A program made the position numbers and the translations under genes. A stretch of 64,000 nt of DNA from a virus. The DNA lies in the IMG/VR virus record IMGVR_UViG_3300042890_000947, positions 1 to 64,000 of that record, one strand, 5' to 3'. Of this stretch, positions 3,550-34,716 are shown piece by piece (the stretch's first letter is position 1; each line of letters starts with the position of its first letter). Below the pieces are notes generated by a model. It was not told where the DNA came from and ran no database searches. It saw nothing but the letters and a program-made list of their open reading frames with translations.

Positions 3550-3795
3550 ATGACCAAAGATGTAATAGCACGAATGGACGAACTCATGAAGCCTATTGAC
3601 AGGCAGATCATGATGTGCGATAATGTTGAAGACTTGCTAATGTTGGCTTCCAACATGATGGTTACCGCCAAGATGATCTATGTTCAGCAGCTTGGCGGTG
3701 AAGGTGCAAAACTCCTAATTCAAAAGATGGTGAATGAAATTGACGAACGAATCCTTCCTGTGGGTCGAGAAGTACCGCCCGAAGACTATTGCTGA
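3550..3795 (+). CDS. hypothetical protein overlapping gene 44
   Basis: 81 residues, mostly helical by composition, rich in Met and acidic residues. ATG 3550 follows the previous TAA by two bases. Its last 62 nt overlap the start of clamp-loader gene 44 in another frame, which is long for this genome. I do not recognise a family. The overlap suggests translational coupling to gene 44. Confidence 0.55.
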   Translation: MTKDVIARMDELMKPIDRQIMMCDNVEDLLMLASNMMVTAKMIYVQQLGGEGAKLLIQKMVNEIDERILPVGREVPPEDYC

Positions 3796-4681
3796 TTGTA
3801 TTCTTCCTGATCGCCTGAAAAAGCCATTTCAGGAATATGTAGAGAAGCAAGAAATTCCAAATCTCATGTTGACTGGTTCTGCGGGTGTTGGTAAGACAAC
3901 CGTAGCGAAAGCTATGTGTGATGAGATTGGTATCAATCATCTGTATATCAATGCCTCTGAAAATCGTGGTATTGATATGCTGCGAACTACCATTCGCGGT
4001 TATGCTTCCACTGTGTCTCTGACTGGTGGTAAAAAGGTAATTATCCTAGACGAAGCTGACTATATGACTCCAGATGCACAGGCAGCGATGCGTGGTGCTA
4101 TCGAAGAGTTTTCTGCTAACTGTACATTCATCTTCACTTGTAACTTCAAGTCCAAGCTGATTGATGCTCTTCATTCTCGTTGTTCTGTCATTGACTTTGC
4201 TTTGAAGAATGATGAGAAGTCGAAGATGGCCATGCAGTTGATGAAGCGTATGGAAAACGTACTAACACTGGAAGGTATCACTTATGATAAGGCGGTTCTT
4301 GCGAAGATTATCGAAAAGTACTTCCCTGACTATCGCCGTACTCTTAATGAGCTACAGCGGTATAGTTCTTCTGGCTCTTTGGATGCAGGCATCGTTGCAC
4401 AACTCTCAGATGTTCGTAAAATTTCCGAGCTGGTTAAGTTTCTAAAGGACAAGAACTTTGGTGATATGCGAAAGTGGTGTGTAGCCAATTCTGATATTGA
4501 GCCAGCACGTATCTATCGCAAGGTCTATGATAGTCTGTATGAGTATTTCAAGCCTGAGAGTATTCCACAAGCAGTTGTGATTATCTCAAAGTATCAATAT
4601 CAGGCCGCGTTTGTTGCTGATCAAGAAATCAATCTAGTCGCTTGTTTGACCGAACTAATGGTGGACTGTGAATATGTCTAA
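3734..4681 (+). CDS. 44: clamp loader large subunit (AAA+ ATPase)
   Basis: 315 residues (T4 gp44 is 319). Walker A GSAGVGKTT at 48-56, Walker B IILDEAD at 103-109, and the SRC arginine-finger motif at 148-150 are all present. With gp62 it forms the ATP-driven loader that opens the gp45 ring at primer-template junctions. The start gives MKLTNESFLWVEKYRPK, matching the family N-terminus. The gene for its partner, gp62, does not follow directly but lies two genes downstream. Confidence 0.92.
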   Translation: MKLTNESFLWVEKYRPKTIADCILPDRLKKPFQEYVEKQEIPNLMLTGSAGVGKTTVAKAMCDEIGINHLYINASENRGIDMLRTTIRGYASTVSLTGGKKVIILDEADYMTPDAQAAMRGAIEEFSANCTFIFTCNFKSKLIDALHSRCSVIDFALKNDEKSKMAMQLMKRMENVLTLEGITYDKAVLAKIIEKYFPDYRRTLNELQRYSSSGSLDAGIVAQLSDVRKISELVKFLKDKNFGDMRKWCVANSDIEPARIYRKVYDSLYEYFKPESIPQAVVIISKYQYQAAFVADQEINLVACLTELMVDCEYV

Positions 4682-5570
4682 TTACAAACTGATATGCTCT
4701 AACAATATCGCAGCAATGAAATCAATGGAAGCAAATTCCATTGATGCTTGTATTACTGATCCTCCTTATGGTATGGAAATTGCTGGTGTTGGTTGGGATC
4801 ATAATGTTCCTCCTGTTGATACTTGGAAAGAAATGAATAGGGTATTGAAGCCCGGCGCTTTTGTCTTGTCATTTTGTGCGCCTGAATTTTATCACCGCAT
4901 GGCAGTTAATGTTGAAGATGCTGGCTTCCGTCCTCTTGACATGATTGTTTGGATGATCACGACTAAGATGGCAAAAGCTAATCGTCTTAAGCCTGCTCAT
5001 GAACCAATCTTTGTAGCTCAGAAACCTATTGAGGGTTCTATTGAGAAGAACTTTGAGAAGTGGGGTTGCGGCAAGATTAATATTGATCGTGCGCGTATTC
5101 CTTGGGATGGTAAACCGCCAACTGGATGGATTAAGGGTGGATCAAAGCGTCGAGCATTTGGCAGTGATGTAGCTAAAGCTGCTGATCAAGCTGTGAAGGA
5201 AACAGAAGATGCTAATCCTACTGGACGTTATCCTTCAAATATCATCGGCCATTTTGATGACACTGAACACCAGAAATATTTCTACGCACCTAGAGTAACG
5301 AGAAAGGAACGCGGAGAATATAACGATCACCCGACTCCTAAGCCGATCTCTTTGATGCGATATCTTTGTCGTGTGTATGCGCCTGCTAATGGTCTTGTTA
5401 TTGATCCATTTATGGGATCAGGGTCTACTGGCATCGCAGCAATACAGGAAGGACAGAAGTTTGTTGGTATTGATCTAGACAAACACTATGTTGATATCTC
5501 AGAACGCCGTATTCAGGATCATTGTTTTAATAAGGAAAATACTCTAGAAAAGCTATTCGAGTATGAATGA
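4674..5570 (+). CDS. site-specific DNA methyltransferase (DPPY type)
   Basis: 298 residues from ATG 4674, overlapping the end of gene 44. The catalytic DPPYGM is at 29-34 and the SAM-binding FMGSGSTG is near 246-253. Motif IV precedes motif I, as in beta-class N6-adenine/N4-cytosine methyltransferases. The target site cannot be read from the sequence. It may protect phage DNA from host restriction, or pair with the nuclease-like protein encoded immediately downstream. It is an insertion between the two clamp-loader subunit genes. Confidence 0.85.
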   Translation: MSNYKLICSNNIAAMKSMEANSIDACITDPPYGMEIAGVGWDHNVPPVDTWKEMNRVLKPGAFVLSFCAPEFYHRMAVNVEDAGFRPLDMIVWMITTKMAKANRLKPAHEPIFVAQKPIEGSIEKNFEKWGCGKINIDRARIPWDGKPPTGWIKGGSKRRAFGSDVAKAADQAVKETEDANPTGRYPSNIIGHFDDTEHQKYFYAPRVTRKERGEYNDHPTPKPISLMRYLCRVYAPANGLVIDPFMGSGSTGIAAIQEGQKFVGIDLDKHYVDISERRIQDHCFNKENTLEKLFEYE

Positions 5571-5582
5571 AGTTCGTTGACA

Positions 5583-5590
5583 TATAAATA
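5583..5590 (+). promoter_or_regulatory. T4-type late promoter box
   Basis: A perfect TATAAATA, 5 nt before the ATG at 5596. A transcript starting there would have almost no leader. A TTGACA at 5577-5582 lies just upstream but lacks a properly spaced -10. Confidence 0.5.
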
Positions 5591-5595
5591 GAATT

Positions 5596-6774
5596 ATGCT
5601 AACATACGAAGAATATAAACAGATCAAGCTAACTGAATCTTTCCTATCGAAACTCTTTGGTTCGATAGTAGAAAAGTTTAAGTCTTTGTTGGCGTCACTG
5701 AGTTTTGGAAAACAAGTATCCATGAAAATCGATATACCCGATAGCAATTTGAATGAAGATATAGATTTAAAATCACGATTGGGATATCTTTCGGAATTTG
5801 CCTGTGCTTCAACTCTCTCTAGCGTAATCAAAAATAAAGGTCTGCGCTTAACGAGTAGATCAAATCCTAAGAAGCTTAATGATGAATTTCTAGCTAAAAA
5901 GAAAATAGTCCAAAAACTCGGTGCTTCTCAATCTGAAATTGATAGAATGGTAACAGCAGGTTCTATTATAGCAAAACAAATCTTTGAGGATGTTATCGTT
6001 AAAGACGAAGACCTACTTTTACTTACTTTTGATATTAATCTCACAGGAGATTCTGGCAAAGGTGTTACCAAAGCAGATTTAATATTGACTGTCACAAAGG
6101 ATTCAGAAAAAGTGGTTGTTGATAAGATTGTGGCTTCTTTGAAAGCATATAAGTCGGCATCTATCAATCTTTCAAATTCTACTTTCATTAGCTTAATTAA
6201 GACCTTGTTCTATGATGCCGATGCTGACATTTCAGGTAGTACGGAAAAGTTCATTCTCAAATTTGCCAAAGACTATGGTTCTGAAAAAGATTTGCGTCAA
6301 CTTTATGATTATCAGAATATCATTGGAACTGAAATGAAAAAAGGCAAATCAAAAGAAGATGCCCGTAAGAAAGCTAAGAAAACACATGGAGATGTGATCG
6401 AAATAATTGCCAAAATCTTTCAGAAATATTATCCTAAACACAAGAAAGTGATGAATGAAAGAGTTCTGCGTATGTTAGGTTTCGATGGTGAGGATGATTT
6501 CTACGCTGCTATTGGTGAAGCGGGTAAACAGAAGATCATTTCTTCTCGCAAGAGTGAAGAATTACAAAGGATGATTTCACAACTGTCGAAGAATTTCACT
6601 CTCACAGTAAAGAGAAACGGCAAAACAAATAACGCGAATATTCTGTTCATAGCGCCTAATGGCGAAGTTATTACCAAAGCTAACATCACATTTGCTGATA
6701 CTGGTGGACCTTCGGCACAAGGTAAGACTAATGCCTTTGTGGACTTCAAAAAATTCATCCTCAAGAGAGACTAA
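5596..6774 (+). CDS. putative PD-(D/E)XK-like nuclease / unknown phage protein
   Basis: 392 residues, no family recognised with certainty. The N-terminus (MLTYEEYKQIKLTESFL) is typical of many large-phage proteins. A possible nuclease core is E67 (GYLSEFACA), D161 (TKADLIL) and K183 (ASLKAYKS), which fits the spacing logic of PD-(D/E)XK folds. The protein is Lys-rich. It lies directly after the DNA methyltransferase and before gene 62, and has its own late promoter box. It could be the restriction partner of the methyltransferase or an unrelated virion-associated protein. Confidence 0.5.
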   Translation: MLTYEEYKQIKLTESFLSKLFGSIVEKFKSLLASLSFGKQVSMKIDIPDSNLNEDIDLKSRLGYLSEFACASTLSSVIKNKGLRLTSRSNPKKLNDEFLAKKKIVQKLGASQSEIDRMVTAGSIIAKQIFEDVIVKDEDLLLLTFDINLTGDSGKGVTKADLILTVTKDSEKVVVDKIVASLKAYKSASINLSNSTFISLIKTLFYDADADISGSTEKFILKFAKDYGSEKDLRQLYDYQNIIGTEMKKGKSKEDARKKAKKTHGDVIEIIAKIFQKYYPKHKKVMNERVLRMLGFDGEDDFYAAIGEAGKQKIISSRKSEELQRMISQLSKNFTLTVKRNGKTNNANILFIAPNGEVITKANITFADTGGPSAQGKTNAFVDFKKFILKRD

Positions 6775-6775
6775 T

Positions 6776-7195
6776 ATGACTGACCTTTTCAAAGACATTA
6801 TACCTTCCATTCATGTGACTAAGAAGGTAGTTATCACCACTGAAAACGAACGGGACTATGTCCCGTTCGTCGTTAACCGTTCCATATCCTTCCACCTGGA
6901 TATGGTAATGGCAGCAAACCAGATGAATATGAACCCATCGACCGACAATCTCCTACAATATCACTATCTGCTAAATACTGTAAGAGCCTATAAAAGGCCT
7001 TTCCAGAAATGGCAAAAGCGTGATATTGTAGAGAATTTGGAAGCGGTGAAAGAATTTTATAACTATTCCAACGAGAAGGCTAAGGAAGCCTTGTCCTTAT
7101 TGTCTGACACGCAGATACAAGAGATTAAGAAGTATTTAAATAAAGGTGGTTTGAATGTTAGACATAAACGAACTAGTGGAGGTAACGCTACCTAA
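6776..7195 (+). CDS. 62: clamp loader small subunit
   Basis: 139 residues from ATG 6776; an upstream in-frame start would lie inside the preceding gene. The segments VNRSISFHLDMV, LLQYHYLLNTVRAYKRPF and SDTQIQEIKKYLNKGG are strongly reminiscent of gp62 from T4-like phages (T4 gp62 is 187 residues). It forms a 4:1 complex with gp44. Its 3' end overlaps regA by 41 nt. A perfect 10-bp hairpin at 6847-6869 lies within its early codons. Confidence 0.85.
   Translation: MTDLFKDIIPSIHVTKKVVITTENERDYVPFVVNRSISFHLDMVMAANQMNMNPSTDNLLQYHYLLNTVRAYKRPFQKWQKRDIVENLEAVKEFYNYSNEKAKEALSLLSDTQIQEIKKYLNKGGLNVRHKRTSGGNAT
6847..6869 (+). other. strong hairpin in the early part of gene 62
   Basis: CGAACGGGAC (6847-6856), loop TAT, GTCCCGTTCG (6860-6869): a perfect 10-bp inverted repeat about 70 nt after the gene 62 start codon. 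It may be an mRNA processing or pausing signal; no T-run follows. Confidence 0.45.
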
Positions 7196-7559
7196 CCCAG
7201 ATAATTTTTTAAAGGTTCGTGAGACGCTTTCGCGTATTGGAGTAGCCTCAAAGAAAGATAAAACGCTGTATCAGTCCTGTCACATACTACACAAGCAGGG
7301 TAGATATTACATCGTTCATTTTAAGCAATTATTTCTATTAGACGGGAAGCAGTCAGACTTCGTAGAAGATGACCGCGCCCGTCTTAATACTATTGCCAAC
7401 CTACTGTCCGAGTGGGAACTGGTAAGTTTGGTAGATGAAAACAAAAGTGCAGTGCCTGTAGCCCCACTATCTCAAATCAAAATTATTTCTCATAAAGAAA
7501 AGATTGATTGGAATCTTGTGGCTAAATATAACATAGGTAAAAAGCGCAAGGAAGAATAG
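7155..7559 (+). CDS. regA: RegA translational repressor
   Basis: 134 residues (T4 RegA is 122). The segments LKVRETLSRIGVA, KDKTLYQSCHILHKQGRYY and IVHFKQLFLLDG match RegA closely. RegA binds the start regions of early mRNAs (clamp and loader genes included) and represses their translation. The extra C-terminal residues are basic (KKRKEE). It overlaps gene 62 by 41 nt, and the order 45-44-62-regA is conserved. Polymerase gene 43, which follows regA in T4, is far away at 41.4 kb. Confidence 0.9.
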   Translation: MLDINELVEVTLPNPDNFLKVRETLSRIGVASKKDKTLYQSCHILHKQGRYYIVHFKQLFLLDGKQSDFVEDDRARLNTIANLLSEWELVSLVDENKSAVPVAPLSQIKIISHKEKIDWNLVAKYNIGKKRKEE

Positions 7560-19778: not shown

Positions 19779-20753
19779 ATGATCCACTTTGCGAAGTATG
19801 TTTTGAATAATGGCGGTATTGTCAAACCGCTTCTGTTAGATTCCTCACTTACAAATGGAACAGGTCTGTTTAATCCAAGCGTATATGTTGATGGCGATAA
19901 GATTTTAGTTAATGTTCGACACTGCCAATATACTCTATATCATTCCGAGCTAAATCGTTTTGAACATACTTGGGGTCCTCTAGTCTATCTCAATCCTGAA
20001 AATGATGTAAGTCTTACAACAACAAACTATCTCGGTGAGTTGAACGAAGACTTATCTTTTAAATACTGTCACAAAGTTGATACAAGCGCATTTGATATTA
20101 AACCTGTATGGGAATTTGTTGGATTAGAAGATGCTAGAATAGTTAGATGGAATGATAAGCTATATATTTCTGGTGTTAGAAGAGATGTGAAAACTAATGG
20201 TGAAGGTCGTATGGAACTTTCAGAGATAGAAATTTCTGAGAGTGGTGTCAAAGAGATTTCTCGATTCCGTATTCCTGCACCAAATGGTGATGGTTCTTAC
20301 TGTGAAAAGAACTGGATGCCTATAACAGATATGCCGTATCATTATTTGAAGTGGTGTAATCCAGTAGAAATCGTTAAAGCAGATCCTGAAGATAGGAGTT
20401 GCGTGACAAGTTTCTTAGGAAACAAAATATTCTTTGATAGAGATCAACGCGGCGGCGGTCAAGTTATTCCATTTGAAGACGGATATCTAGCACTCATCCA
20501 TGAAACAAATCTATATGTTAGTGCCCAAGGAAGAAAAGATGGAACATATCGTCATCGATTCATCTACTGGAGTAAGGACTGGGAACCAATACATAGATCG
20601 AAAGAGTTCTCGTTCATGGAAGCAAAGATAGAATTTGCCTGCGGGCTTGCTAAAAGAGATAATGATATCTTCATAACATTTGGCTTTCAAGATAATGTCG
20701 CATATGTATTAAAGACGGATGTGAATGTGATTAAGGAATTTATTTATGCTTGA
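19779..20753 (+). CDS. beta-propeller glycosidase/phosphorylase-like protein
   Basis: 324 residues. NPSVYVDGDKILVNVRH, WEFVGLEDARIVRWNDKLYISGVR and EKNWMPI follow the pattern of five-bladed propeller enzymes of the GH43/GH130 type, in which LEDARI and EKNW line the active site. The gene may therefore cleave or phosphorolyse a sugar linkage, or be a catalytically altered sugar-binding homologue. First gene after the 19721 promoter and coupled to a large glycosyltransferase. Confidence 0.6.
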   Translation: MIHFAKYVLNNGGIVKPLLLDSSLTNGTGLFNPSVYVDGDKILVNVRHCQYTLYHSELNRFEHTWGPLVYLNPENDVSLTTTNYLGELNEDLSFKYCHKVDTSAFDIKPVWEFVGLEDARIVRWNDKLYISGVRRDVKTNGEGRMELSEIEISESGVKEISRFRIPAPNGDGSYCEKNWMPITDMPYHYLKWCNPVEIVKADPEDRSCVTSFLGNKIFFDRDQRGGGQVIPFEDGYLALIHETNLYVSAQGRKDGTYRHRFIYWSKDWEPIHRSKEFSFMEAKIEFACGLAKRDNDIFITFGFQDNVAYVLKTDVNVIKEFIYA

Positions 20754-22908
20754 GTCTTTGCTTATTGAATATATTATGGATACCGAAAACCCAATTCTTA
20801 ACTACAAGATGGGTCTCGAATATGAAAAGATTGGACAGACTGCGGCTGCTGTATCGTATCTACTACGCGCGGCTGAAAGATCAAAAGACAATCTTCTATC
20901 ATATGAATGTTTGTTGAGAGTTGGTAGATGTTTTGAAAAACAGAAAAACAGAAACTATACTGTTAAGTCTATGTATCGAAATGCTATCGATCTTTGCCCT
21001 GATAGACCAGAGGCATATTATCTTCTAGCAAGAAATTATAATTCCGAACAGAACTATGCTGACTCTTTTCTAATGTGTAGTATGGCACAACGCAACTGTA
21101 AAGAAAACTCATATTCAGATATAGGATCAGACTATCCTGGTAGATGGGGATTATATTATCACGAAGCAATCGCATCATGGTGGTATGGTAAAAATGAAAG
21201 GTCTAGAAGACTATTCAAAAGATTGAAAAGATTATATTGGAATGACATGGATAATTCTCATAGAGAAGAGGTTGATAATTATATGAGCACTATTGAATCT
21301 AAACTTGGCCCAGAACAAATCAAAACTGTAGATTGTTTCACATTCTATGCACCAACGATGAAAGAAATTCTTCGACTGAGACTTAATATACTAAAAGACC
21401 ATGTTGATGAGTTTGTTATTTCCGAATGTAATAAGAGTCATAGTGGCGCGCCTATGGAATATCAACTTGAAAACGTTCTAAGAGAAATAGGATGTGATCA
21501 TCTCAATATTAGAATTATTAAGGTGGATATTCCAGAAACAGAAAATCTTGTTATAGAAGATATCGATAGAGTTAATGCTTCCTACAACATCGATAACATC
21601 AATACTCTAAAAGCAAAGGTTAGAGAGCGTATGGGCATTGATTCTCTTGTTTCTGTACTGGACAGTTATAACGACGATACGGTCTTTATCATTAGTGATG
21701 CTGATGAGATTATTAAGCCACAAGCAATAGAATTCATGTCTTCTATTGTTAAGCAAAATCAAAATTGTATCATAAGAATTCCAATGGTATTGCTTGAAGG
21801 TAGAGCTGACTATCGTGTTTACAATAGAGATTCGAATACACCCGCTGAATGGACTGGCGCTGTTATCACAACAAGACAGCATTTGAGAAGAGCCACTCCA
21901 GCACAAATGAGAACCAATGTAAATAATCCTTTCCCTATAAACTATGTAACACAAAACGATCAAATGATACAGGACTTGGGATGGCATTTTAGTTCTATGG
22001 GCGGCAGAGATGTTGTCAAGCACAAGTATAAGACCTTTGTTCACTATGATGATACTTTTACCACATCATCGGTAAACGGTAAAGTTGCTTCCGTAAAGAA
22101 AATGGATTACATCGACAATGTTCTTATCGAAGAAGGATCGATGGGAGTCAGTGCTGAAAAAAATAGAATCCTCAAAAAGTATCCTATTGAAGATTTGCCT
22201 TCTATAATTTTTGAATTACCTACAGTTAAAGAGTTTTTATTTCCAACTTATGAGCCGACATCAAAAAATCAAACGAAACATAAGATTGAAAGAATATATC
22301 CAGAATATGATGCGAAGTATGGCGAATGGGGATGGATTTCACTCGACAAGGCCGGATGTTTAATCGACTATGTAGATGAAATTTGTAGAGATGTTGACAA
22401 TCCTATCTGCGTTGAAATTGGAGTTTATGCGGGTAAGAGTATTTTGCCTGTTGCTTTGGAATTAAAGAGAAATTACAAAGGTCAAATCTATGCCATTGAT
22501 CCTTGGACAAATGAAGAAGCGACCAAAGGATATGAGGGTCCGCACTATGAATATTGGAGTCAAATCAATCTACAAGAAAAATTTCAATTGTTTAAGACGG
22601 TAATTAAGGAATTTGAATTAGACGAATATGTTGTAACACTCAAAGAAACAAGTGATAATGCTCCTGAACTAAAGAATATTAACTTGCTACATATCGATGG
22701 TCAGCATACCGATCAAGCTCTACGCGATGCGAAAAAGTATGCTGTGAATGTTGAACTGAATGGATACTGTATTGTCGATGATGTTGATTGGGGTCAAGTT
22801 GAAAATGTACCTAAGTTCTTAGAAAAGATAGGATTCGTGCCTATTCATTCGGTAGGCTCTACGGCAATCTTTAAGAAACTTTGTTACAGAACAGATGTGG
22901 AAATTTAA
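20746..22908 (+). CDS. TPR / GT17-like glycosyltransferase / SAM methyltransferase fusion
   Basis: 720 residues in three parts. Residues about 1-175 are TPR-like helical repeats (LNYKMGLEYEKIGQTAAAVS). Residues about 195-470 match the glycosyltransferase family 17 pattern (VDCFTFYAPTMKEILRLRL, EFVISECNKSHSG, FIISDADEIIKP, the last holding a DxD). Residues about 530-715 are a class I methyltransferase of the Methyltransf_24 type (VEIGVYAGKS, LLHIDGQHTDQALRDAKKY). The domains probably build and methylate one glycan on a scaffold. The stop precedes the next ATG by 2 nt. Confidence 0.7.
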   Translation: MLESLLIEYIMDTENPILNYKMGLEYEKIGQTAAAVSYLLRAAERSKDNLLSYECLLRVGRCFEKQKNRNYTVKSMYRNAIDLCPDRPEAYYLLARNYNSEQNYADSFLMCSMAQRNCKENSYSDIGSDYPGRWGLYYHEAIASWWYGKNERSRRLFKRLKRLYWNDMDNSHREEVDNYMSTIESKLGPEQIKTVDCFTFYAPTMKEILRLRLNILKDHVDEFVISECNKSHSGAPMEYQLENVLREIGCDHLNIRIIKVDIPETENLVIEDIDRVNASYNIDNINTLKAKVRERMGIDSLVSVLDSYNDDTVFIISDADEIIKPQAIEFMSSIVKQNQNCIIRIPMVLLEGRADYRVYNRDSNTPAEWTGAVITTRQHLRRATPAQMRTNVNNPFPINYVTQNDQMIQDLGWHFSSMGGRDVVKHKYKTFVHYDDTFTTSSVNGKVASVKKMDYIDNVLIEEGSMGVSAEKNRILKKYPIEDLPSIIFELPTVKEFLFPTYEPTSKNQTKHKIERIYPEYDAKYGEWGWISLDKAGCLIDYVDEICRDVDNPICVEIGVYAGKSILPVALELKRNYKGQIYAIDPWTNEEATKGYEGPHYEYWSQINLQEKFQLFKTVIKEFELDEYVVTLKETSDNAPELKNINLLHIDGQHTDQALRDAKKYAVNVELNGYCIVDDVDWGQVENVPKFLEKIGFVPIHSVGSTAIFKKLCYRTDVEI

Positions 22909-25259: not shown

Positions 25260-25271
25260 ATGGAGAAATGT

Positions 25272-26243
25272 ATGAATAAGACTATGCTTACTCTTGCTGC
25301 TGTTCTGTTTGCTTTTGGTACCAGTTCAGTTTATGCTACCAGTGATGTTATCCGTATTGTAGGATCATCTACAGTTTATCCCTTCACAACCACTGTCGCA
25401 GAACAGTTCGCTAAGAAGAATGGTGTTTCAGCACCAATCGTTGAAGCAACTGGCACTGGTGGTGGTATCAAGATGTTCTGTGCTGGTAACGGTCCGGATA
25501 CTCCTGATGCTGTGAATGCTTCTCGTAAGATGAAGGATGAAGAGAAGAAGATTTGTGCTGAGAATGGTGTAGAAAACATCACCGAAATGGCAATCGGTAT
25601 TGATGCCATTGTAGTCGCAATGTCTAAGGATCATCCTGGCATCAACCTATCAACAAACGATATCTATCGCGCTCTTGCGAAGTATGTGGTTGTTGATGGT
25701 AAGTTTGTCGAAAATCCAGTAAAGACTTGGAATGAGGTTCGTTCTGATCTTCCTTCTGACAAGATTGAAGTTCTTGGCCCGCCGCCAACTTCAGGTACGC
25801 GCGACTCATTTGTAGAGTTGGTATTTGAGAAGGAATGCAAGGCTGACATTAAGAATAACAACTTGATCGTTTCAGAAGAAGATACAAAGGCATTCTGTCA
25901 ATCAGTTCGTGAAGATGGCGCATACATCGAAGCGGGTGAGAATGATAATCTAATCGTTCAGAAGCTTCAATCGAATCCTGCTGCTCTCGGTATCTTTGGT
26001 TATTCATTCCTTGAAGAGAACCTAAACACTATTCAGGGCGCAACAATCAATGATGTTGCACCAGAATATGATGCTATCGCTGCTGGTAATTATCCAATCG
26101 CTCGTAAGCTCTATGTTTATTTCAAGGGATCACACTTTGAATCAAATCCAGACTTGAAGAAGTTTATGGATGAATATCAGAGCGACGAAGCTATTGGCGA
26201 AGAAGGATATTTGGCTGAGAAGGGTCTTATCCCGCTTAAGTAA
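25272..26243 (+). CDS. pstS: PstS-like periplasmic phosphate-binding protein
   Basis: 323 residues from ATG 25272, with GGAG just upstream; the ATG at 25260 would place that ribosome site inside the gene. A clear signal peptide (MLTLAAVLFAFGTSSVYA) is followed by the phosphate-binding loops GSSTVYPFTT and TGTGGG, and later PTSGTRDSF. It would be exported and captures phosphate for the host Pst transporter. Phage pstS genes are known host-derived accessory genes that support phosphate uptake during infection. No Pho box recognised. It lies just after a terminator, so it must depend on readthrough or an unseen promoter. Confidence 0.88.
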   Translation: MNKTMLTLAAVLFAFGTSSVYATSDVIRIVGSSTVYPFTTTVAEQFAKKNGVSAPIVEATGTGGGIKMFCAGNGPDTPDAVNASRKMKDEEKKICAENGVENITEMAIGIDAIVVAMSKDHPGINLSTNDIYRALAKYVVVDGKFVENPVKTWNEVRSDLPSDKIEVLGPPPTSGTRDSFVELVFEKECKADIKNNNLIVSEEDTKAFCQSVREDGAYIEAGENDNLIVQKLQSNPAALGIFGYSFLEENLNTIQGATINDVAPEYDAIAAGNYPIARKLYVYFKGSHFESNPDLKKFMDEYQSDEAIGEEGYLAEKGLIPLK

Positions 26244-26246
26244 TAC

Positions 26247-26290
26247 TTGACAATCTGGAGAGGATGATATATACTATCATCTTCTCCTTT
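26247..26290 (+). promoter_or_regulatory. sigma70-like promoter embedded in a terminator hairpin
   Basis: TTGACA (26247-26252), 17 bp, TATACT (26270-26275). The same bases fold as GGAGAGGATGATA pairing with TATCATCTTCTCC followed by TTTCTTT. This looks like the pstS terminator. The -10 occupies the loop. Same design as at 255-305. Confidence 0.65.
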
Positions 26291-26305
26291 CTTTATAGGT
26301 ATATT

Positions 26306-27055
26306 ATGAAACTCATTATTGAAAAGTCTGTGGTCGTTGTTACCCCTACAGTAGGTTCAGCAAAACTTGCTGATGCTGTTGAGAGCGTTGCGAATCAGAC
26401 ATATAAAAATCTCACACATCTTTTGGTTCTAGATGGAACTGAACATCTAGAACGTTTTAATAAAAATCTTGTGCACCAAGATAAGGATCATTGGAATCTT
26501 CAATTTATGTTTCTACCTTGGAACACTGGAGGGACTGGTGGCAAATTCTACGGGCATCGCATCTATGCTGGTGTTCCTCATTTTCTCAATGCTGATTATG
26601 TCTTTTTTCTTGATGAAGATAATTGGTATGAACCCGATCATGTGAGAACTCTTGTAGAGGTGCTTGATCGTGGTAACGATTTCGCATACTCATTCCGCAA
26701 AATATACTCCCCCGATAAGACATATATCGCAGACGATAACTGTGAAGCACTAGGCAAATGGCCAATCTATTTCTCTCACAATGATCCGCAGTATCTTGTT
26801 GATACATCTTCGTTTGCCTTCAATACAAAATTCCTACAGAAGACTTGTCATTTATGGCATTCTGGTTGGGGCGGTGATCGCAGATATCTTTACAGTGTAT
26901 TAGCTCAGAATCCTAAGTGGGATACAAGTTATAAACACACTCTCTGTTATAGAACAGACGCAAATCCAAATTCTCCTGATGCTGATTTCTTCATCAAGGG
27001 CAACGAACAACAGCTTGAACATTATAATGGAGCATTACCATGGATTACAAATTAG
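26306..27055 (+). CDS. family 2-like glycosyltransferase
   Basis: 249 residues from ATG 26306. VVVVTPTVGSAKLADAVESVANQTY is the nucleotide-binding N-terminal strand of GT2 enzymes, and VFFLDEDNWYEPDHV carries the DxD-type metal site. It ends with a possible catalytic loop HSGWGGDRRY. First gene of a long coupled run to 38.8 kb. Donor and acceptor are unknown. Confidence 0.78.
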   Translation: MKLIIEKSVVVVTPTVGSAKLADAVESVANQTYKNLTHLLVLDGTEHLERFNKNLVHQDKDHWNLQFMFLPWNTGGTGGKFYGHRIYAGVPHFLNADYVFFLDEDNWYEPDHVRTLVEVLDRGNDFAYSFRKIYSPDKTYIADDNCEALGKWPIYFSHNDPQYLVDTSSFAFNTKFLQKTCHLWHSGWGGDRRYLYSVLAQNPKWDTSYKHTLCYRTDANPNSPDADFFIKGNEQQLEHYNGALPWITN

Positions 27056-27621
27056 TACTACCCGGCCAAGAAGTGATAGAATCAAACAGTCTTTCTCATT
27101 TAACATTAGAATACTTAAAAACGTATGCTTCAGGTGATATTTTTGTTGAAACTGGCACATATCTCGGTGATACTGTAAGACTTGCTCTTGAGCATGGTTT
27201 TAAGAAGATACATTCGATTGAGTTGAACAAGAAGCTTTATGATGATGCTGTAGAAATGTTTAAGGATGAACCAGCCGTGAAGATTTGGCTTGGCGATTCT
27301 GCCGAGATTCTTCCTGTTATCATTAATGAGATTGGAGATAACCGTGCTACTTTCTGGTTAGACGCTCACGCATCTGGACCTCTTGTTGGTGGCAAGAGCG
27401 GAGGTTCTCCTGTGGTAGATGAGTTAGCTATCATTAATGCTAGTGTTTGTAAAGAACACACTATCTTTATTGATGATAAGAGATTATTTGGTTCGGCCGA
27501 ATGGTCTTATGTGAGTTTATCAAGTGCTATGGAAAATCTTTTAAAGATAAATCCAAAATATAGAATTGAATTTCTTGATGGACACATTCCTAATGATGTG
27601 ATTTGCGCGAGAGTAGAATAA
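27040..27621 (+). CDS. class I SAM-dependent methyltransferase-like
   Basis: 193 residues. FVETGTYLGDTVRLALEHG corresponds to SAM motif I, IHSIELNKKLYDDA to motif II, and TFWLDAHASG to the motif IV/V region. Resembles small phage methyltransferases that act on sugars. It overlaps the preceding glycosyltransferase by 16 nt and the next gene by one base, and so is likely cotranslated with them. Confidence 0.65.
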   Translation: MDYKLVLPGQEVIESNSLSHLTLEYLKTYASGDIFVETGTYLGDTVRLALEHGFKKIHSIELNKKLYDDAVEMFKDEPAVKIWLGDSAEILPVIINEIGDNRATFWLDAHASGPLVGGKSGGSPVVDELAIINASVCKEHTIFIDDKRLFGSAEWSYVSLSSAMENLLKINPKYRIEFLDGHIPNDVICARVE

Positions 27622-28526
27622 TGGGTAAAGACTTAATTATTGGTGGCGCTTCTGGCTACACCTGGGATCAATTGAAGTACTGGGTCAATTCAATTCAGCT
27701 TTCTGGTTTTGCTGGTGATGTTGTTCTAGTCGCAACAAACATCACTAAAGAGACAATTGATAAGCTCACAAGCAAGGGTGTTATTCTTGAATTGTATGGC
27801 AATAAGGATGCTGAAGGCAACTTTACAGCACACACAAATGGTGCGCCTCATGTAGAACGCTTCTTCTATATCTGGAACTACATCAGACAAAATCTAGATT
27901 TATATGATTTCGTGATCACGACGGACACGCGCGATGTTGTGTTTCAGCAGAATCCCTCTGCTTGGCTTGATGAGATGATTTTCTCTGGTCGTGAAACTAT
28001 TGTTGTAGCTTCTGAGGGAATGAAATATGAAGACGAGCCTTGGAGCAATAACAATTTATTAGAATCTTTCGGACCATATTTCCATAGCATATATAAGTCG
28101 AATCCAATTTTCAACGTTGGTACTATTGCGGGCGAAGCTGCGTACATTGCTGACTTACTATTTTTGATCTTCCAGTTGTCTATCAACAGACCTATTCCGA
28201 TTGTTGATCAAGCTGTATTCAATATCATTCTTCAACAGAAGCCGTATAAGGATATTGTTAAGTTCTCATACAACTCTGATGGGTGGGCAATTCAGCTTGG
28301 CACAACAATTGAGGCGGTAAAGTCTGGCGCTGGTGATATTGGCATGAGCGTAGCACAGAATCCATCAAACATGATTCTATATCAAGCTAAGTATTTTGAT
28401 GAGCAACCGCGACTAACTGCTGATGGTTATGTTGAGAACGAAAAAGGCAATAGATTTGTAATTGTTCACCAATATGATCGCACTAATTCTTGGAAAAATA
28501 AGATTATGGAGAAGTATAATGACTAA
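27621..28526 (+). CDS. glycosyltransferase-like protein
   Basis: 301 residues from ATG 27621, overlapping the previous TAA. It has GT-A-like features: DVVLVATN, then DFVITTDTRDVVFQ with a DxR/DxD-type site, then IFNVGTIAGEAAYIADL and the D-containing PIVDQAVFN. Similar to putative glycosyltransferases in phage and nodulation-type loci. The substrate is unknown. Confidence 0.6.
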   Translation: MGKDLIIGGASGYTWDQLKYWVNSIQLSGFAGDVVLVATNITKETIDKLTSKGVILELYGNKDAEGNFTAHTNGAPHVERFFYIWNYIRQNLDLYDFVITTDTRDVVFQQNPSAWLDEMIFSGRETIVVASEGMKYEDEPWSNNNLLESFGPYFHSIYKSNPIFNVGTIAGEAAYIADLLFLIFQLSINRPIPIVDQAVFNIILQQKPYKDIVKFSYNSDGWAIQLGTTIEAVKSGAGDIGMSVAQNPSNMILYQAKYFDEQPRLTADGYVENEKGNRFVIVHQYDRTNSWKNKIMEKYND

Positions 28527-29544
28527 GACTGTATTGATTACTGGCGGCGCTGGCTTTATCGCACACCATGTTGTGGGACATTTATTGGATAATACAGACT
28601 GGAATATTATCACATTAGATAGACTTGATTATTCTGGCAATTTGAATAGATTATATGAAGTCACTCATGATCGTCCTTCCGATCAAACAAAGAGAGTTCG
28701 TACTGTTTTTCATGATTTGAAGGCTGAACTTAATCCTCTCGTACAGAATTTTGTTGGTAAGCCAGATATCATTCTTCATTTGGCAGCAGCTTCACATGTG
28801 GATCGTTCTATTTCACATCCTATAGAATGTATTACAGATAATGTCATGGGCACAGCTAACTTGCTTGAGTACGCGCGTAGACTTGATAATCTTGAAATGT
28901 TCCTTTATTTTAGTACTGATGAAATCTTTGGTGTAGCACCTCCCGGTGTTGCGTACAAGGAACGTGATCGTTACAACTCGACCAATCCTTACTCAGCATC
29001 TAAGGCAGGCGCAGAAGAACTGTGTGTTGCGTATGAGAACACATACAAGATGCCAATGATGGTCACTCACACAATGAACGTGTTTGGCGAACGTCAGACT
29101 CCAGAGAAGTTTATTCCTCTGTCTATTAAGAAGGTACTACACGATGAAGTAGTGACTATTCATGCTGATCCCACAAAGACAAGAGCAGGATCTCGTTTCT
29201 ATGTTCATGCTAAGGATGTGGCTGACGCACTGTTATTCTTATTACAGAATAATCCACAGATTGAACCAGATTTTGGTATGGCAAAGTGTCGCAAATTTAA
29301 TATTGTTGGTAAAGAAGAAGTGGACAATCTTTCTCTTGCTAAGATGATTGCTGCCGCTCAGAATAAGGAACTAAAATATGAGATGGTTGATTTTCATACT
29401 TCTAGACCAGGTCACGATCTTAGGTATGCTCTCTCTGGTGATCTTATGCGGTCACTTGGTTGGGAACCTAGACTTGCTTTAAGTGAGCGCATCAAGGAAG
29501 TATCTGATTGGTATATGAATAATACCAAATGGTTAGGAATGTAA
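28519..29544 (+). CDS. dTDP-glucose 4,6-dehydratase-like enzyme
   Basis: 341 residues from ATG 28519, overlapping the upstream gene by 8 nt. An SDR fold with the NAD motif GGAGFIAHH near the N-terminus, LHLAAASHVDRSI, YFSTDEIFG and the catalytic YSASKAGAE (YxxxK). The Ser/Thr-Asp-Glu triad STDEIFG fits RmlB-type 4,6-dehydratases rather than plain epimerases. It would make a 4-keto-6-deoxy nucleotide sugar, the usual precursor for deoxysugars. The next gene, a sugar C-methyltransferase, acts on such intermediates. Confidence 0.8.
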   Translation: MTKTVLITGGAGFIAHHVVGHLLDNTDWNIITLDRLDYSGNLNRLYEVTHDRPSDQTKRVRTVFHDLKAELNPLVQNFVGKPDIILHLAAASHVDRSISHPIECITDNVMGTANLLEYARRLDNLEMFLYFSTDEIFGVAPPGVAYKERDRYNSTNPYSASKAGAEELCVAYENTYKMPMMVTHTMNVFGERQTPEKFIPLSIKKVLHDEVVTIHADPTKTRAGSRFYVHAKDVADALLFLLQNNPQIEPDFGMAKCRKFNIVGKEEVDNLSLAKMIAAAQNKELKYEMVDFHTSRPGHDLRYALSGDLMRSLGWEPRLALSERIKEVSDWYMNNTKWLGM

Positions 29545-29545
29545 T

Positions 29546-30739
29546 ATGGAAAACTGCGTAGAAATTAAAGAATGTATTGCGTGTGGAGGCAATCATTTAA
29601 AGTCTCTACTTGATCTTGGAATACAGCCTCTAGCTAATTCGTTTGTTAAGACAGACAATGAACCAGAGGCTGTGTATCCTCTCGCTACCAATTATTGCGA
29701 AGAATGCTTTCATGTACAATTGACACATAAAGTTAATCCTGATCTTTTGTTCAAGAACTATCTCTATGTGTCTGGTACTACAAAGACTCAGTTAGAATAC
29801 TTTGATTGGTTTGCTCAGTTTGTTATGGAAAACCATAAAGCGGATCGTGTTTTAGATATCGGCTGCAATGACGGCTCACAACTTGACGCATTCAAGAAGT
29901 ATGGCGCATTGACTTTCGGTGTTGATCCTGCAGAAAATCTATATCAGATCAGTTCCAAGAATCATCATGTACATTGTGGCTATTTTGATAGCACTTATCC
30001 TAGAATTGGATGTGGTGCTGTTATCTGCCAAAATGCTTTTGCTCACAACTATGACCAGCTTACATTCTTAAAGAATATGGCTAACGTTGTGTCAGATGAA
30101 GGGTACATCTATATTACTACATCACAGGCCGACATGGTCTTGAACTGTGAGTTTGATACTATCTATCACGAACATCTTTCTTTCTATAACGTTCGTTCTA
30201 TGAATGAACTGTGTAAAAGGGCTGGACTAAATCTAGTAGAAGTATTAAAGCATCCGATTCATGGCACTAGCTTTATCTTTGTTATATCAAAGTCAAAAGC
30301 TAGACCTTCATATATCAATCTTCTTATTAAGAATGAAGAAACATATCATCTTTATGATGAGAACACCTATGAAGCTTACGTTGAGGAATGTAAGAATATT
30401 ATAGAAGCGTTTGGTATTGAAGTTAGAAACCACAAGGCAGCGGGTAAGACTGTTATTGGCTATGGTGCTCCAGCTAAGGGCAACACTCTACTAAACGCAG
30501 CAAACATCATACTTGATTTCATCATTGATGATAATCCTATGAAGCAAGGATTGTTTACTCCTGGTATGCGCGTTCCTATCTTCTCTTCGGAAAAGATGAA
30601 TGAATATGCCAATGAAGATGTTGTATTCGTGCCTCTTGCTTGGAACTTCTTTGAAGAGATTCAAGCTAAGATTAAAAAGCTTCGTCCTGACAAGAAGGAT
30701 TCTTTTGTAAGATATTTTCCATACGTGTTTACGGAATAA
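29546..30739 (+). CDS. sugar C-methyltransferase (zinc-binding, TylCIII/NovU type)
   Basis: 397 residues. N-terminal zinc-binding cysteines (CIACGG and YCEECFHVQL) precede a Rossmann SAM domain (VLDIGCNDGSQLDAFKKYG). IYHEHLSFYNV contains the YHEHLSY-type catalytic tract of this family. A C-terminal domain (TVIGYGAPAKGNTLLN) completes the standard architecture, and the length is normal for the family. It adds a branch methyl to a 4-keto deoxysugar, consistent with the dehydratase gene upstream. Confidence 0.82.
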   Translation: MENCVEIKECIACGGNHLKSLLDLGIQPLANSFVKTDNEPEAVYPLATNYCEECFHVQLTHKVNPDLLFKNYLYVSGTTKTQLEYFDWFAQFVMENHKADRVLDIGCNDGSQLDAFKKYGALTFGVDPAENLYQISSKNHHVHCGYFDSTYPRIGCGAVICQNAFAHNYDQLTFLKNMANVVSDEGYIYITTSQADMVLNCEFDTIYHEHLSFYNVRSMNELCKRAGLNLVEVLKHPIHGTSFIFVISKSKARPSYINLLIKNEETYHLYDENTYEAYVEECKNIIEAFGIEVRNHKAAGKTVIGYGAPAKGNTLLNAANIILDFIIDDNPMKQGLFTPGMRVPIFSSEKMNEYANEDVVFVPLAWNFFEEIQAKIKKLRPDKKDSFVRYFPYVFTE

Positions 30740-30751
30740 GTGAGGTATAAT

Positions 30752-31630
30752 ATGAAGAAAAAACTTAAATTAGGTTTTACCGATGCGTATGATAATGCTA
30801 AGAAAACTCTAACCGATATTCTCGGTAGATACTACGAAATTATTCGAGATGATACCAATCCAGATTATCTTATCTTTTGTGATCCTACATTTGGTACCAA
30901 CAACTACACATATAAAAACTGCAAGAAGATTTTATTTACAGGCGAAAATTATCGTCCAACATATTTCACATATGATTATGCTATCACATTTGATCATGAG
31001 AGTAGTCCAAAGCACTATCGTTTACCGCTATATGTTGCTGAAATGTTGTCGGCAACATATGATACAGACTACAAGGACTTCTATCATGTACTGAATAGAA
31101 AAGTTGATATTGAATATGAATGGGACAGAAAAACAGAATTTTGTTCTTTCGTTCAAAGTAATCCCAACTGTGAAACTCGCAATATTTTCTTTGATCTTCT
31201 CTCAGAATATAAGAAAGTGAATTCGGCAGGGCCGCACAAGAACAACATAGGATATACTATTCCTAAAAAGCTTCAAGCAAAAATTGATTTTGTTTCTAAA
31301 CACAAGTTTAACATTGCTTTTGAGAACGGTAGTTATCCTGGGTATGTAACCGAAAAGATATTGAATACTTTCTATTCGAATACAATACCTATATACTGGG
31401 GGAGTCTAACTGTTGTGCGTGATTTTAATCCAAAAGCATTTATCAATAGTCATGAGTATGTAAATTTGGGTGAGGTCGTTGATCGTGTTAGAGAACTGGA
31501 CAATAACAAGAACCTGTATCTTGATATGCTTTCACAATCTGCTGTCAAAGATAACAGACCAAATGAATGGATGAACTTTGATGAATTTTATAAGTGGTTC
31601 GATACTTTTGTTTATGAGGATAAATTGTAA
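30752..31630 (+). CDS. GT10-like (fucosyltransferase family) glycosyltransferase
   Basis: 292 residues from ATG 30752. The C-terminal half has the GT10 signature: FNIAFENGSYPGYVTEKIL, then NTIPIYWGSLTVVRDFNPKAFIN. These match the alpha-1,3/4-fucosyltransferase donor-binding region. The N-terminus is diverged. It probably transfers fucose or a related deoxysugar to a glycan. Confidence 0.75.
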   Translation: MKKKLKLGFTDAYDNAKKTLTDILGRYYEIIRDDTNPDYLIFCDPTFGTNNYTYKNCKKILFTGENYRPTYFTYDYAITFDHESSPKHYRLPLYVAEMLSATYDTDYKDFYHVLNRKVDIEYEWDRKTEFCSFVQSNPNCETRNIFFDLLSEYKKVNSAGPHKNNIGYTIPKKLQAKIDFVSKHKFNIAFENGSYPGYVTEKILNTFYSNTIPIYWGSLTVVRDFNPKAFINSHEYVNLGEVVDRVRELDNNKNLYLDMLSQSAVKDNRPNEWMNFDEFYKWFDTFVYEDKL

Positions 31631-32577
31631 TGAGTAACGCTCGTATTATGTTTGTGGTACATCGATATGCTCCATTTCCTGGTGGCTCTGAGTATTATGT
31701 GAGAGATATGGCAGAAGAATGTGTGAGACGTGGCTATGATGTTACCGTACTTGCTCATGAGCATCAGGGCGACTTAAACGGCGTTAAAGTTACAAACGAT
31801 TATAACATTCTTAATCAGCGATGGAATCTCATAGTTGTTCATGGCGGCGATGTTATCTCTCAGAATATTGTTCATGCGAATGCCTATGCTTTAAGAAAAA
31901 CACCTGTTGTCTATATGATTATCAAACCGAGCGAAAGCGAAATTTGTTACAATGGATTAAAGCATCATCGATTCATAGCATATTCAACTTCTGTCGATAT
32001 CAATCATATCAAGAAATTTGGATATCTTAATAAAGCTCGGCGCATTCGTCATGGAATGAATGTTGGGCAAACCATAAAACCAAAATTGAAATATCCTAAG
32101 ACAACTTTCGTTTCTGCTGGTGGTTTTTGGCCAAATAAGGCAATGGTGCCTCTTGCTCAAGAATTCATACATGCGAACATACCAAATACAGAACTCCATC
32201 TATACGGATATCATCCTGGAGAAATGCCACCGAATACAAGTAATGTTAAGGTATTTCTTGGCAAACCAAAAGATGAAGTTGCTCAAGCTATCGCAAGTGC
32301 GGATGCTTATATTATGAATAGCTATGATGAAGGATTCGGTCTTGTTCTTTTGGAAGCAATGATGAATAAGACACCTTGGTATGCTCGTAACATTGCTGGA
32401 GCTAAAGATATGTCATCATATGGTAAAATCTATGATAACGAATCAGAACTTATGTTGATGCTGATGAGATTTAAAAGAGTTGACAAAGAGATTGAAGATA
32501 GCTATAATTACGTCATGGCAAATCACACAATCGAACAAACGGTAAATGATATCGAAGATATTCTATGGGAAATTTAG
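31630..32577 (+). CDS. GT-B fold glycosyltransferase (family 4)
   Basis: 315 residues. RYAPFPGGSEYYVRDMAEE is the N-terminal acceptor-side loop of GT4 enzymes. The donor domain has FVSAGGFWPNKA and the E-x7-E motif in DEGFGLVLLEAM. Retaining sugar transferase, probably extending the same glycan as its neighbours. ATG overlaps the preceding TAA. Confidence 0.8.
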   Translation: MSNARIMFVVHRYAPFPGGSEYYVRDMAEECVRRGYDVTVLAHEHQGDLNGVKVTNDYNILNQRWNLIVVHGGDVISQNIVHANAYALRKTPVVYMIIKPSESEICYNGLKHHRFIAYSTSVDINHIKKFGYLNKARRIRHGMNVGQTIKPKLKYPKTTFVSAGGFWPNKAMVPLAQEFIHANIPNTELHLYGYHPGEMPPNTSNVKVFLGKPKDEVAQAIASADAYIMNSYDEGFGLVLLEAMMNKTPWYARNIAGAKDMSSYGKIYDNESELMLMLMRFKRVDKEIEDSYNYVMANHTIEQTVNDIEDILWEI

Positions 32578-33344
32578 AAGTTTCATTTGGCATCTGCCTT
32601 TCTCCAGAGTATGATGTTAATCAATTACAAAATCTCGTAGACAGTATTGGAAAACAATCTGATGCTGTCTACGAAGTTAATCTTATTGGAAAATTTAGAA
32701 ACGATGTGAATCTTCCTAAAAATTCAAACATTATTGATTTTGATGAAACACAGAAAAAGGGTTGGATCACAAAGAAGAAGAATATACTCGTCAATAATTC
32801 AAAGTATGATATTGTCTGTCTCATACACGATTACTATATATTACATCTCAATTGGCATGAAGGCATGAGACGTTATAATGATGAGAATCCTAATTGGAAT
32901 ATTCTTATGAATAGGGTGCATCGATATGAGGGTGATCGTCATAGTGACTGGCTTGTAAATCAAAAATATATGGATAAGCTTTTAGAAAAATATCCTAGTC
33001 TACATAATGAATTATACTCTGTTGCTCCCGATAACTGGAATGGCGCGAGATGGGTTTGCGGTCTGCCTTACTCCGAACAAGGTCTCACGCATCTACAATA
33101 TATAAGTGGTGGATACATTCTAGCAAAGAAGAAGGTACTCACAGATGTTGTGCTAGATGAATCGTTTGTTTGGGGTCAAGCAGAAGATTTGGCATGGAGT
33201 GAAAGTGTTATTGATGCTGGTTACAAATTTCAATTTAATCCTTATTCAGACGTTTCTATACAGAAGCCTAATAAGTGGAAAGTTGGACAGATGACCGACG
33301 AATGTGTTAAAAGGCTTAAGGAGATATTTGATAATGGCCACTGA
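32565..33344 (+). CDS. GT-A type glycosyltransferase-like protein
   Basis: 259 residues, overlapping the GT4 gene by 13 nt. FGICLSPEYDVNQLQNLVDSI begins a GT2-like fold. CLIHDYYILHLNWHEGM replaces the usual DxD (H-D-Y), and SGGYILAKKKV with VWGQAEDLAWSESV resembles the acceptor/catalytic region of the family. The altered metal motif makes the activity less certain. Confidence 0.6.
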   Translation: MGNLEVSFGICLSPEYDVNQLQNLVDSIGKQSDAVYEVNLIGKFRNDVNLPKNSNIIDFDETQKKGWITKKKNILVNNSKYDIVCLIHDYYILHLNWHEGMRRYNDENPNWNILMNRVHRYEGDRHSDWLVNQKYMDKLLEKYPSLHNELYSVAPDNWNGARWVCGLPYSEQGLTHLQYISGGYILAKKKVLTDVVLDESFVWGQAEDLAWSESVIDAGYKFQFNPYSDVSIQKPNKWKVGQMTDECVKRLKEIFDNGH

Positions 33345-34716
33345 ATATAATAAACTAATGATATTTGATCTTGATGGTGTTTTGATCGAAAGCCGAGAAC
33401 TTCATTATGAAACTCTCAATGATGCTCTGAATGCGATTGATCCAAAATATATCATTACCCGTGAAGAACATCTTTCAACTTATGATGGATTATCAACAAC
33501 AACTAAGTTGAAAATTCTTGCTGCTAACAAGGGTCTACCTTCTTCCTATTTCGATCAGATTTGGCAAGATAAGCAGAAGCACACTTTTGAACGATTGAAG
33601 TCTATTTCAAAGTCATCTAAACTTATTGAAATTTGCGAATGGCTTAAAAGCAAAAACTATCGAATAGCTGTAGCATCAAACAGTATCCGAGAAACAATTA
33701 AGATTAGTCTCATGTCTCTTGGTATAATGGAATACGTTGAATACATCATGAGCAATGAAGATGTTCGACGTACAAAGCCTTATCCTGAGATGTATTGGAA
33801 TTGTATGAATGCTCTTAATGCGATTCCTCGAACTACGATTATCGCAGAAGATAGTCATATTGGTAGACAGGGCGCAATAGATAGTGGTGCTGTTTTGCTT
33901 CCTATAGAAAACAGTTATGATCTAACATTAGAAAGAATACAGGATATTGTAATGAAGTTAGAAAGTGGTAGTAAGAAGTCTATTCCATGGCGTGATCAAA
34001 AACTCAATGTTCTTATTCCAATGGCAGGAGCAGGATCACGCTTCGCGGCTGCTGGATATACTTTCCCTAAGCCTCTTATCGAGGTACGTGATAAGACTAT
34101 GATCCAGACAGTGGTTGATAACCTAAACATGGAAGCAAATTATATCTTTATCGTACAGAAGGATCACTACGAGAAGTATAATCTTAAGTCTCTTCTATCT
34201 GCCATCAAGCCCGGTTGTAAAATTGTACAAGTTGAAGGCATGACAGAAGGTGCGGCTTGTACTACTCTTCTTGCGAGAGAATTGATCGACAATGATCATC
34301 CTCTTATTATGGCAAACTCCGATCAATTTGTTGAATGGAATACTAACGAAGTCATGTACGCTTTCAATGCGGATTCGATTGATGGTGGTATCCTAACATT
34401 TAAGGCAAATCATCCAAAGTGGAGCTACGCAAAACTGGATGATAATGGTTTTGTTAGTGAAGTGGCAGAGAAGAATGTGATCAGTGAAAATGCTACTGTT
34501 GGTATATATTTCTGGAAGAAGGGATCCGATTACGTAAAATATGCCGACCAAATGATTGCGGCAAATGATAGAACAAACAACGAGTTCTATGTGTGTCCAG
34601 TATTCAACTACGCAATCAAAGACAATAAGAAAATTCGTATCAAGCAGATTGAGCGTATGTGGGGCATCGGCACTCCTGAAGACCTCAAGTATTTCTTGGA
34701 AAATCATAAAGAATGA
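33334..34716 (+). CDS. HAD phosphatase / sugar-1-phosphate nucleotidyltransferase fusion
   Basis: 460 residues from ATG 33334. Residues 1-215 form a HAD hydrolase (IFDLDGVLIES, VASNSI, KPYPEMYW, AEDSHIG), close to beta-phosphoglucomutase-type phosphatases. From about 225, LNVLIPMAGAGSRFAAAGYTFPKPLI starts a nucleotidyltransferase of the NTP_transferase family. The two activities in one chain would remove or move a phosphate and then activate a sugar-1-phosphate to a nucleotide sugar for the local transferases. Confidence 0.78.
   Translation: MATEYNKLMIFDLDGVLIESRELHYETLNDALNAIDPKYIITREEHLSTYDGLSTTTKLKILAANKGLPSSYFDQIWQDKQKHTFERLKSISKSSKLIEICEWLKSKNYRIAVASNSIRETIKISLMSLGIMEYVEYIMSNEDVRRTKPYPEMYWNCMNALNAIPRTTIIAEDSHIGRQGAIDSGAVLLPIENSYDLTLERIQDIVMKLESGSKKSIPWRDQKLNVLIPMAGAGSRFAAAGYTFPKPLIEVRDKTMIQTVVDNLNMEANYIFIVQKDHYEKYNLKSLLSAIKPGCKIVQVEGMTEGAACTTLLARELIDNDHPLIMANSDQFVEWNTNEVMYAFNADSIDGGILTFKANHPKWSYAKLDDNGFVSEVAEKNVISENATVGIYFWKKGSDYVKYADQMIAANDRTNNEFYVCPVFNYAIKDNKKIRIKQIERMWGIGTPEDLKYFLENHKE

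Follow-up and report, generated by a model that had tools for sequence, protein, structure and literature searches.

Introduction

Restriction-type nucleases carried in virus particles are known from the chloroviruses, in which, according to a published account (PMC7019647), the restriction enzymes are packaged, the methyltransferases are not, and the DNA of the host is broken down in a matter of minutes. Here we describe a DNA methyltransferase gene and an adjoining open reading frame (ORF) for a 392-residue protein in the IMG/VR record IMGVR_UViG_3300042890_000947, an 86-kb fragment of a T4-like phage of which the first 64 kb (positions 1 to 64,000, hereafter the window) were analysed. As in the chlorovirus PBCV-1 (Agarkova et al. 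2006, as cited there), a methyltransferase and a restriction-type nuclease would be encoded side by side by the virus, and the nuclease rather than the methyltransferase would be packaged (a prediction for the phage), so that it would meet unmethylated host DNA first. The two systems differ in that chloroviruses infect eukaryotic algae and their enzymes are proven, whereas the window belongs to a tailed bacteriophage, and its protein has a T4-type leader, comes from an unrelated family and is known from sequence. We give about an even chance to the reading that the pair consists of a phage modification gene and a virion-packaged restriction-type endonuclease, which would probably be injected together with the DNA.

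In T4, capsid targeting depends on residues 4 and 7 of the cargo protein, and the gp21 protease cleaves after L/I-x-E (PMC9026906). T4 heads tolerate staphylococcal nuclease packaged by fusion to a targeting sequence (PMC3012670), which makes a packaged nuclease physically plausible. Mass spectrometry of virions of the cyanophage S-CREM2 reported a SAM hydrolase, an APH-like kinase, a cytidylyltransferase and a Cas9-like nuclease, for which the authors did not exclude co-purification (PMC10665884). Our literature searches, of partial coverage, returned no report of a restriction-type nuclease carried in a phage head, and on our best reading the combination of such a nuclease with a modification gene is known from chloroviruses and new for phages. 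To our knowledge, there are few injected phage effectors with a predicted enzymatic function.

Results and discussion

Predicted nuclease fold and protein family

The initial annotation of the window, made from the letters alone, had pointed to a possible PD-(D/E)XK core (E67, D161 and K183) in the 392-residue protein, had proposed structure prediction as a check, and would have given up the idea if the model lacked a nuclease fold. The model does show one, with HinP1I and MspI as its best PDB matches, and the three residues are invariant in 43 relatives. With five near-identical sequences AlphaFold2 gave a useless model (predicted local distance difference test, pLDDT, 52), and after the alignment had been deepened to 43 members, down to 32% identity, the model reached a pLDDT of 84 and a predicted template modelling score of 0.76. 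Its topology is helix (E67), strand, strand (D161 at the edge), strand (K183), strand and helix; E67 lies on the first helix, and the core is followed by a helical and then a beta-rich C-terminal part. A Foldseek search of 350,542 PDB chains placed HinP1I at the top (E 5e-4, probability 1.00), the sole match below 1e-3, and second MspI (E 0.036), which is related to HinP1I in structure (Yang et al. 2005, cited in PMC4081073); lower matches were noise. The catalytic-type residues with a conserved x-x-K strand are shared with these two enzymes. The 392-residue protein differs from them by the lack of any detectable sequence similarity, by its greater length and by the presence of a leader and an extra C-terminal part.

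Conservation points in the same direction. Some 30 residues are invariant in the alignment, among them S181-L182-K183 as a block and T150, G151, K155, G156, K159, Y185, N191 and N194. The residue two positions before K183 is a serine instead of D or E; the acidic residues and the x-K element are present. Comparison of the window ORF with a relative (L005, 8001-9179) gave a ratio of nonsynonymous to synonymous substitution rates (dN/dS) of 0.058, which indicates purifying selection. Given the model, the protein very probably has a restriction-type nuclease fold, and it is likely to be an active nuclease.

Neither the protein nor its family had a credible sequence match in Pfam, PHROGs, PADLOC or the PDB, and no relative was found by tblastn searches of 50,697 phage records with four divergent members as queries, by a profile search of seven phage records or by a scan of bacterial and archaeal genomes. 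The entry point to the family was instead the methyltransferase: three contigs carry a homologue 52-54% identical to that of the window, adjoined by an ORF 43-45% identical to the 392-residue protein. Subsequent alignment-based scans of IMG/VR yielded about 80 loci (32 clusters at 90% identity, 21 at 70%), which, judged by their sequences, constitute a new protein family present in dozens of uncultured phages.

Possible fold-level viral relatives in ACG-2014f and S-CAM1 were identified solely from their length and profile rank, have no leader and were not counted as members; for the ACG-2014f protein, profile comparison gave no support for membership. This uncharacterised 433-residue protein of a cultured phage (NC_026927; L161 2390-3691), probably a match at the level of the fold, is encoded directly upstream of a D12 DNA methyltransferase (L161 3727-4626).

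N-terminal leader and predicted protease sites

The N-terminus, which did not enter into the initial annotation, looks like a T4 capsid-targeting leader. Family members start with M-x-x-[FY], followed by L/I-x-E within about 10-25 residues, and the strict form of this pattern is present in 17 of the 21 clusters, against a mean of 0.52 and a maximum of 3 in 500 shuffles. The glutamate at position 14 occurs in 40/40 filled rows of the alignment, with L or I two residues earlier. At a second site, E54 is found in 41/41 filled rows and a hydrophobic residue at position 52 in 40/41; this [LIVM]-x-E (52-54) directly precedes the folded core, residues 48-54 have a pLDDT below 50, and the stretch between the two sites is variable. 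Among the 75 window ORFs of at least 100 residues, the strictest form of the leader is confined to the 392-residue ORF.

T4 IPI begins with MKTFKEF and has ITE/A at residues 17-20 (the slash marks the cut). With IPI, IPII, IPIII and Alt of T4 the candidate nuclease shares a leader with aromatics at positions 4 and 7, the L/I-x-E site, the late promoter box and a predicted ejection with the DNA. The T4 cargos, however, inhibit restriction or modify RNA polymerase and none is a restriction-type nuclease, and the 392-residue family adds the second conserved protease-like site. The 86-kb record to which the window belongs gave no match to the gp21 protease family (PF03420); gp21-family proteases are encoded by seven long family contigs, one of them a sister contig whose nuclease gene is identical. 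The gp23 of this sister contig has a like site (MLNE/AAP).

The virion-reported enzymes of S-CREM2 (OR473000) have leaders of the same kind, although they belong to other enzyme families: the SAM hydrolase starts with MKDFDSFLEE, the APH kinase with VKRFDAFLTE and the cytidylyltransferase with MKNFSSFLTE, and the Cas9-like protein has a leader-like FASFMAEA further in. Three of the four strict-pattern ORFs in the 89 kb examined belong to the published virion proteome. The S-CREM2 record had no match to the 392-residue family, several members of which are flanked by cytidylyltransferase-like genes with this leader. Because of its capsid-targeting-like start and its prohead-protease sites, the 392-residue protein is probably a virion cargo, and we hold its packaging to be as likely as its nuclease activity. 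The leader pattern could serve as a simple predictor of virion cargo enzymes in many uncultured T4-like phages.

Two further loci bear on such leaders. An ADP-ribosyltransferase gene (ADPrib_exo_Tox, E 2e-24) adjoins the portal gene in the sister contig L101 (9309-10295, minus strand); it has a TTG start and the leader MKKFGEYLDE/S, and its product is likely an Alt-like injected protein, as far as the sequence tells. In S-CREM2 (L134 3837-13331), the genes for the virion-reported SAM hydrolase and Cas9-like protein stand beside annotated Dam and EcoRI-like genes, possibly a restriction and counter-restriction island.

The methyltransferase and its association with the candidate nuclease

The methyltransferase of the window scored 122 bits against PF01555 (cut-off 26.7) and has both the S-adenosylmethionine motif (DPFMGSG, residues 244-250) and the catalytic motif (DPPY, residues 29-32). 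Its first 8 nucleotides are also the last 8 of gene 44, so that it is probably co-expressed with the replication genes.

A methyltransferase lies directly next to the nuclease in 7 of the 21 clusters, the window included, and upstream, downstream or convergent to it. The neighbours are of several types: the window type (window clade and L019-021), another N6_N4 lineage (L035), D12 enzymes (the L042 and L079 clades and L067) and, in L036, probably a permuted type with weak matches only. Mapped on the tree, the methyltransferase labels required seven changes. Methyltransferases are rare in these contigs: 18 of them, about 934 kb in sum, contained no more than four that exceeded the cut-off of PF01555 or PF02086, all four of them adjoining the nuclease (a second PF02086 match in one contig was the same gene and was counted once), and none of PF00145 was seen in the 16 contigs searched. 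Some members of the L058 clade have instead, next to the nuclease, a gene resembling those of type II restriction enzymes (PADLOC REase_II), and L066 has a D12 methyltransferase two genes away. The adjoining slot is hypervariable in the surroundings of L061 and L065, and in further clades PD-(D/E)XK-like motifs were recognised by eye in the neighbours.

The initial proposal of a restriction-modification-like pair is partly supported, by the predicted nuclease fold and by a methyltransferase adjacency that recurs in unrelated contexts and with unrelated enzyme types. The methyltransferase is no obligatory partner, since 14 of the 21 clusters lack one as an immediate neighbour. We lean slightly towards the view that, where it is present, the neighbouring methyltransferase blocks the site of the nuclease. 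Avoidance of CGCG, and also of CCGG and GGCC, was seen in L092/L094 and L064, where it is inseparable from host effects.

Proposed function and alternatives

The proposed course is as follows. The methyltransferase, read together with the replication genes, would mark the phage DNA during copying, and the nuclease would be made late from its own promoter, of which the box is seen. The capsid-targeting leader would carry it into the prohead, where a gp21-type protease may cut after LTE-14 and probably after LNE-54, both motifs being present, and the nuclease would be stored in the head; speculatively, the propeptide between the two sites may hold the enzyme inactive until head maturation. On entering the next host with the DNA, it would cut what is unmarked, namely the chromosome of the host and possibly the DNA of a competitor phage, and the incoming methylated genome would be spared. 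This full scheme, a restriction-modification system split between genome and particle, in which the methyltransferase marks the progeny and the head delivers a doubly cleaved nuclease precursor, is put forward tentatively, at somewhat below even confidence. The pair is laid out like a type II restriction-modification system whose nuclease would be sent into the virion instead; membership is not claimed, since late expression, packaging, cleavage, injection, DNA cutting and protection by methylation are all steps that we infer. If correct, the scheme would be a prokaryotic counterpart of the chlorovirus strategy and would bring to light injected nucleases that are widespread among T4-like phages and belong to a family not seen before. 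The predicted core, the packaging tag with two protease sites and the methyltransferase neighbours allow a direct test of whether host or competitor DNA is degraded early.

Several observations weigh against this scheme. The structural match is modest in extent (Foldseek template modelling scores of 0.31/0.45), and four of the 21 clusters lack the strict leader pattern. The others concern the partnership and are best considered with the strongest alternative, that of a virion-packaged nuclease whose safety is independent of the methyltransferase: it would be an injected nuclease that degrades host DNA or counters defences, self-DNA would be protected by base modification, by an inactive precursor or by a long or rare site, and the methyltransferase would be an anti-restriction orphan that settled alongside. 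The clusters without a directly adjacent methyltransferase speak for it, and the tested contigs from them (including ones of 149.5 kb, 120 kb and 89 kb) had none of the three methyltransferase families. Conversely, S-SKS1 and S-CAM4 have homologues of the window methyltransferase without the nuclease. The two genes have also diverged unequally: between the window and L005, the synonymous divergence (dS) of the nuclease is 1.12, against 0.32-0.53 for its neighbours, the methyltransferase among them, and thus the two did not move as one unit; the sequences suggest that the nuclease gene was exchanged on its own, by allele replacement through recombination. Finally, two of these tested contigs, L034 and L030, avoid no 4-base palindrome strongly. 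A phage without a methyltransferase would be expected to avoid a short palindrome that its nuclease could cut freely in unmodified DNA, and the result argues against a simple 4-base cutter in these two phages. The initial annotation had held that relatives carrying the gene without the methyltransferase, as a virion protein, would undo the pair; such relatives make up two thirds of the clusters as far as direct adjacency goes, and the family does look virion-borne, so that this objection holds in part. On the other hand, the few methyltransferases in these contigs are immediate neighbours of the nuclease, on either side of it and of several types, and the protein that the nuclease matches best in structure is a restriction enzyme with site specificity. 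For these reasons we consider a nuclease independent of the methyltransferase unlikely, if still a serious competitor.

An ordinary intracellular restriction-modification pair, used for late exclusion of competitor phages, would also agree with the nuclease fold and the methyltransferase adjacency, and annotated Dam and EcoRI-like genes do stand close together in S-CREM2. The leader would then be accidental or otherwise used, and this reading is improbable given that conservation in the family extends to the leader and to both protease sites, which match the leaders of virion-reported enzymes, and that a late promoter fits a virion component. Still less probable is an internal head protein with a nuclease-derived fold that does not cleave and serves as an anti-restriction decoy; the restriction inhibitor IPI is one of the T4 internal proteins that have leaders of this kind (PMC3012670), but the catalytic-type E67, D161 and K183 and the residues around them are invariant. 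A replication or repair nuclease acting with the clamp loader, as the position within that operon and the gp45, UvsX-like or DnaB-like genes near some relatives might suggest, is very improbable, because in other clades the gene is neighboured by DUF6267, NMNAT-like and HAD genes, many of which have leaders like its own, and because it has its own late promoter and a distribution narrow for a core function.

Gene order and promoter

The sequence and the Pfam and PHROG matches agree with the initial annotation in the order and coordinates of the genes between 44 and 62 (Table 1). The split itself, described there as a departure from the normal arrangement, is real; it is not unprecedented, as the cyanophage S-RIM8 has a different, unrelated methyltransferase between genes 44 and 62. 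Six IMG/VR sister contigs have the same gene block, with 88-100% identity across the 392-residue ORF, which rules out an assembly artefact.

The late promoter attributed to this ORF is present as an exact box, from which its activity is presumed. Five nucleotides separate the end of TATAAATA from the ATG, a spacing also found in the clusters L020, L042, L048 and L050, and no Shine-Dalgarno-like sequence was seen in window positions 5583-5598, so that the late mRNA may be leaderless.

Table 1. Features of the locus of the methyltransferase and the candidate nuclease and restriction-enzyme-like neighbours in related contigs.
Feature	Contig	Position	Strand	Evidence
Gene 44 homologue, clamp-loader large subunit (AAA+ ATPase)	Window	3734..4681	+	phrog_168 E 7e-120; Gp44_lid
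DNA methyltransferase, N6_N4_Mtase family (DPPY), 298 residues	Window	4674..5570	+	PF01555 E 3.5e-35; PADLOC MTase_II E 4e-40
T4-type late promoter box TATAAATA	Window	5583..5590	+	exact match
392-residue ORF (nuclease candidate)	Window	5596..6774	+	ORF
Capsid-targeting-like leader MLTYEEYKQIKLTE, residues 1-14, aromatics at 4 and 7, ending L-x-E	Window	5596..5637	+	
Variable, partly helical propeptide/linker, residues 15-54, ending in [LIVM]-x-E (LNE/D)	Window	5638..5757	+	
Predicted restriction-endonuclease-like domain, residues 55-392	Window	5758..6771	+	AlphaFold2, Foldseek, invariant residues
Gene 62 homologue, clamp-loader small subunit	Window	6776..7195	+	phrog_225 E 8e-35; PF16790
regA	Window	7155..7559		
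REase_II-like neighbour of nuclease	L061	2525-3586		PADLOC, E 3.5e-8
REase_II-like neighbour of nuclease	L065	3453-4235		PADLOC, E 1.1e-11

Other features of the window

Elsewhere in the window, a 720-residue ORF (20746-22908) has a C-terminal part that matches phrog_2675 (annotated as DNA methyltransferase, E 1e-9) and is neighboured by Hsp20 and sugar genes. A block of glycosyltransferase-like, nucleotide-sugar epimerase and HAD-type genes extends over positions 25260-36109.
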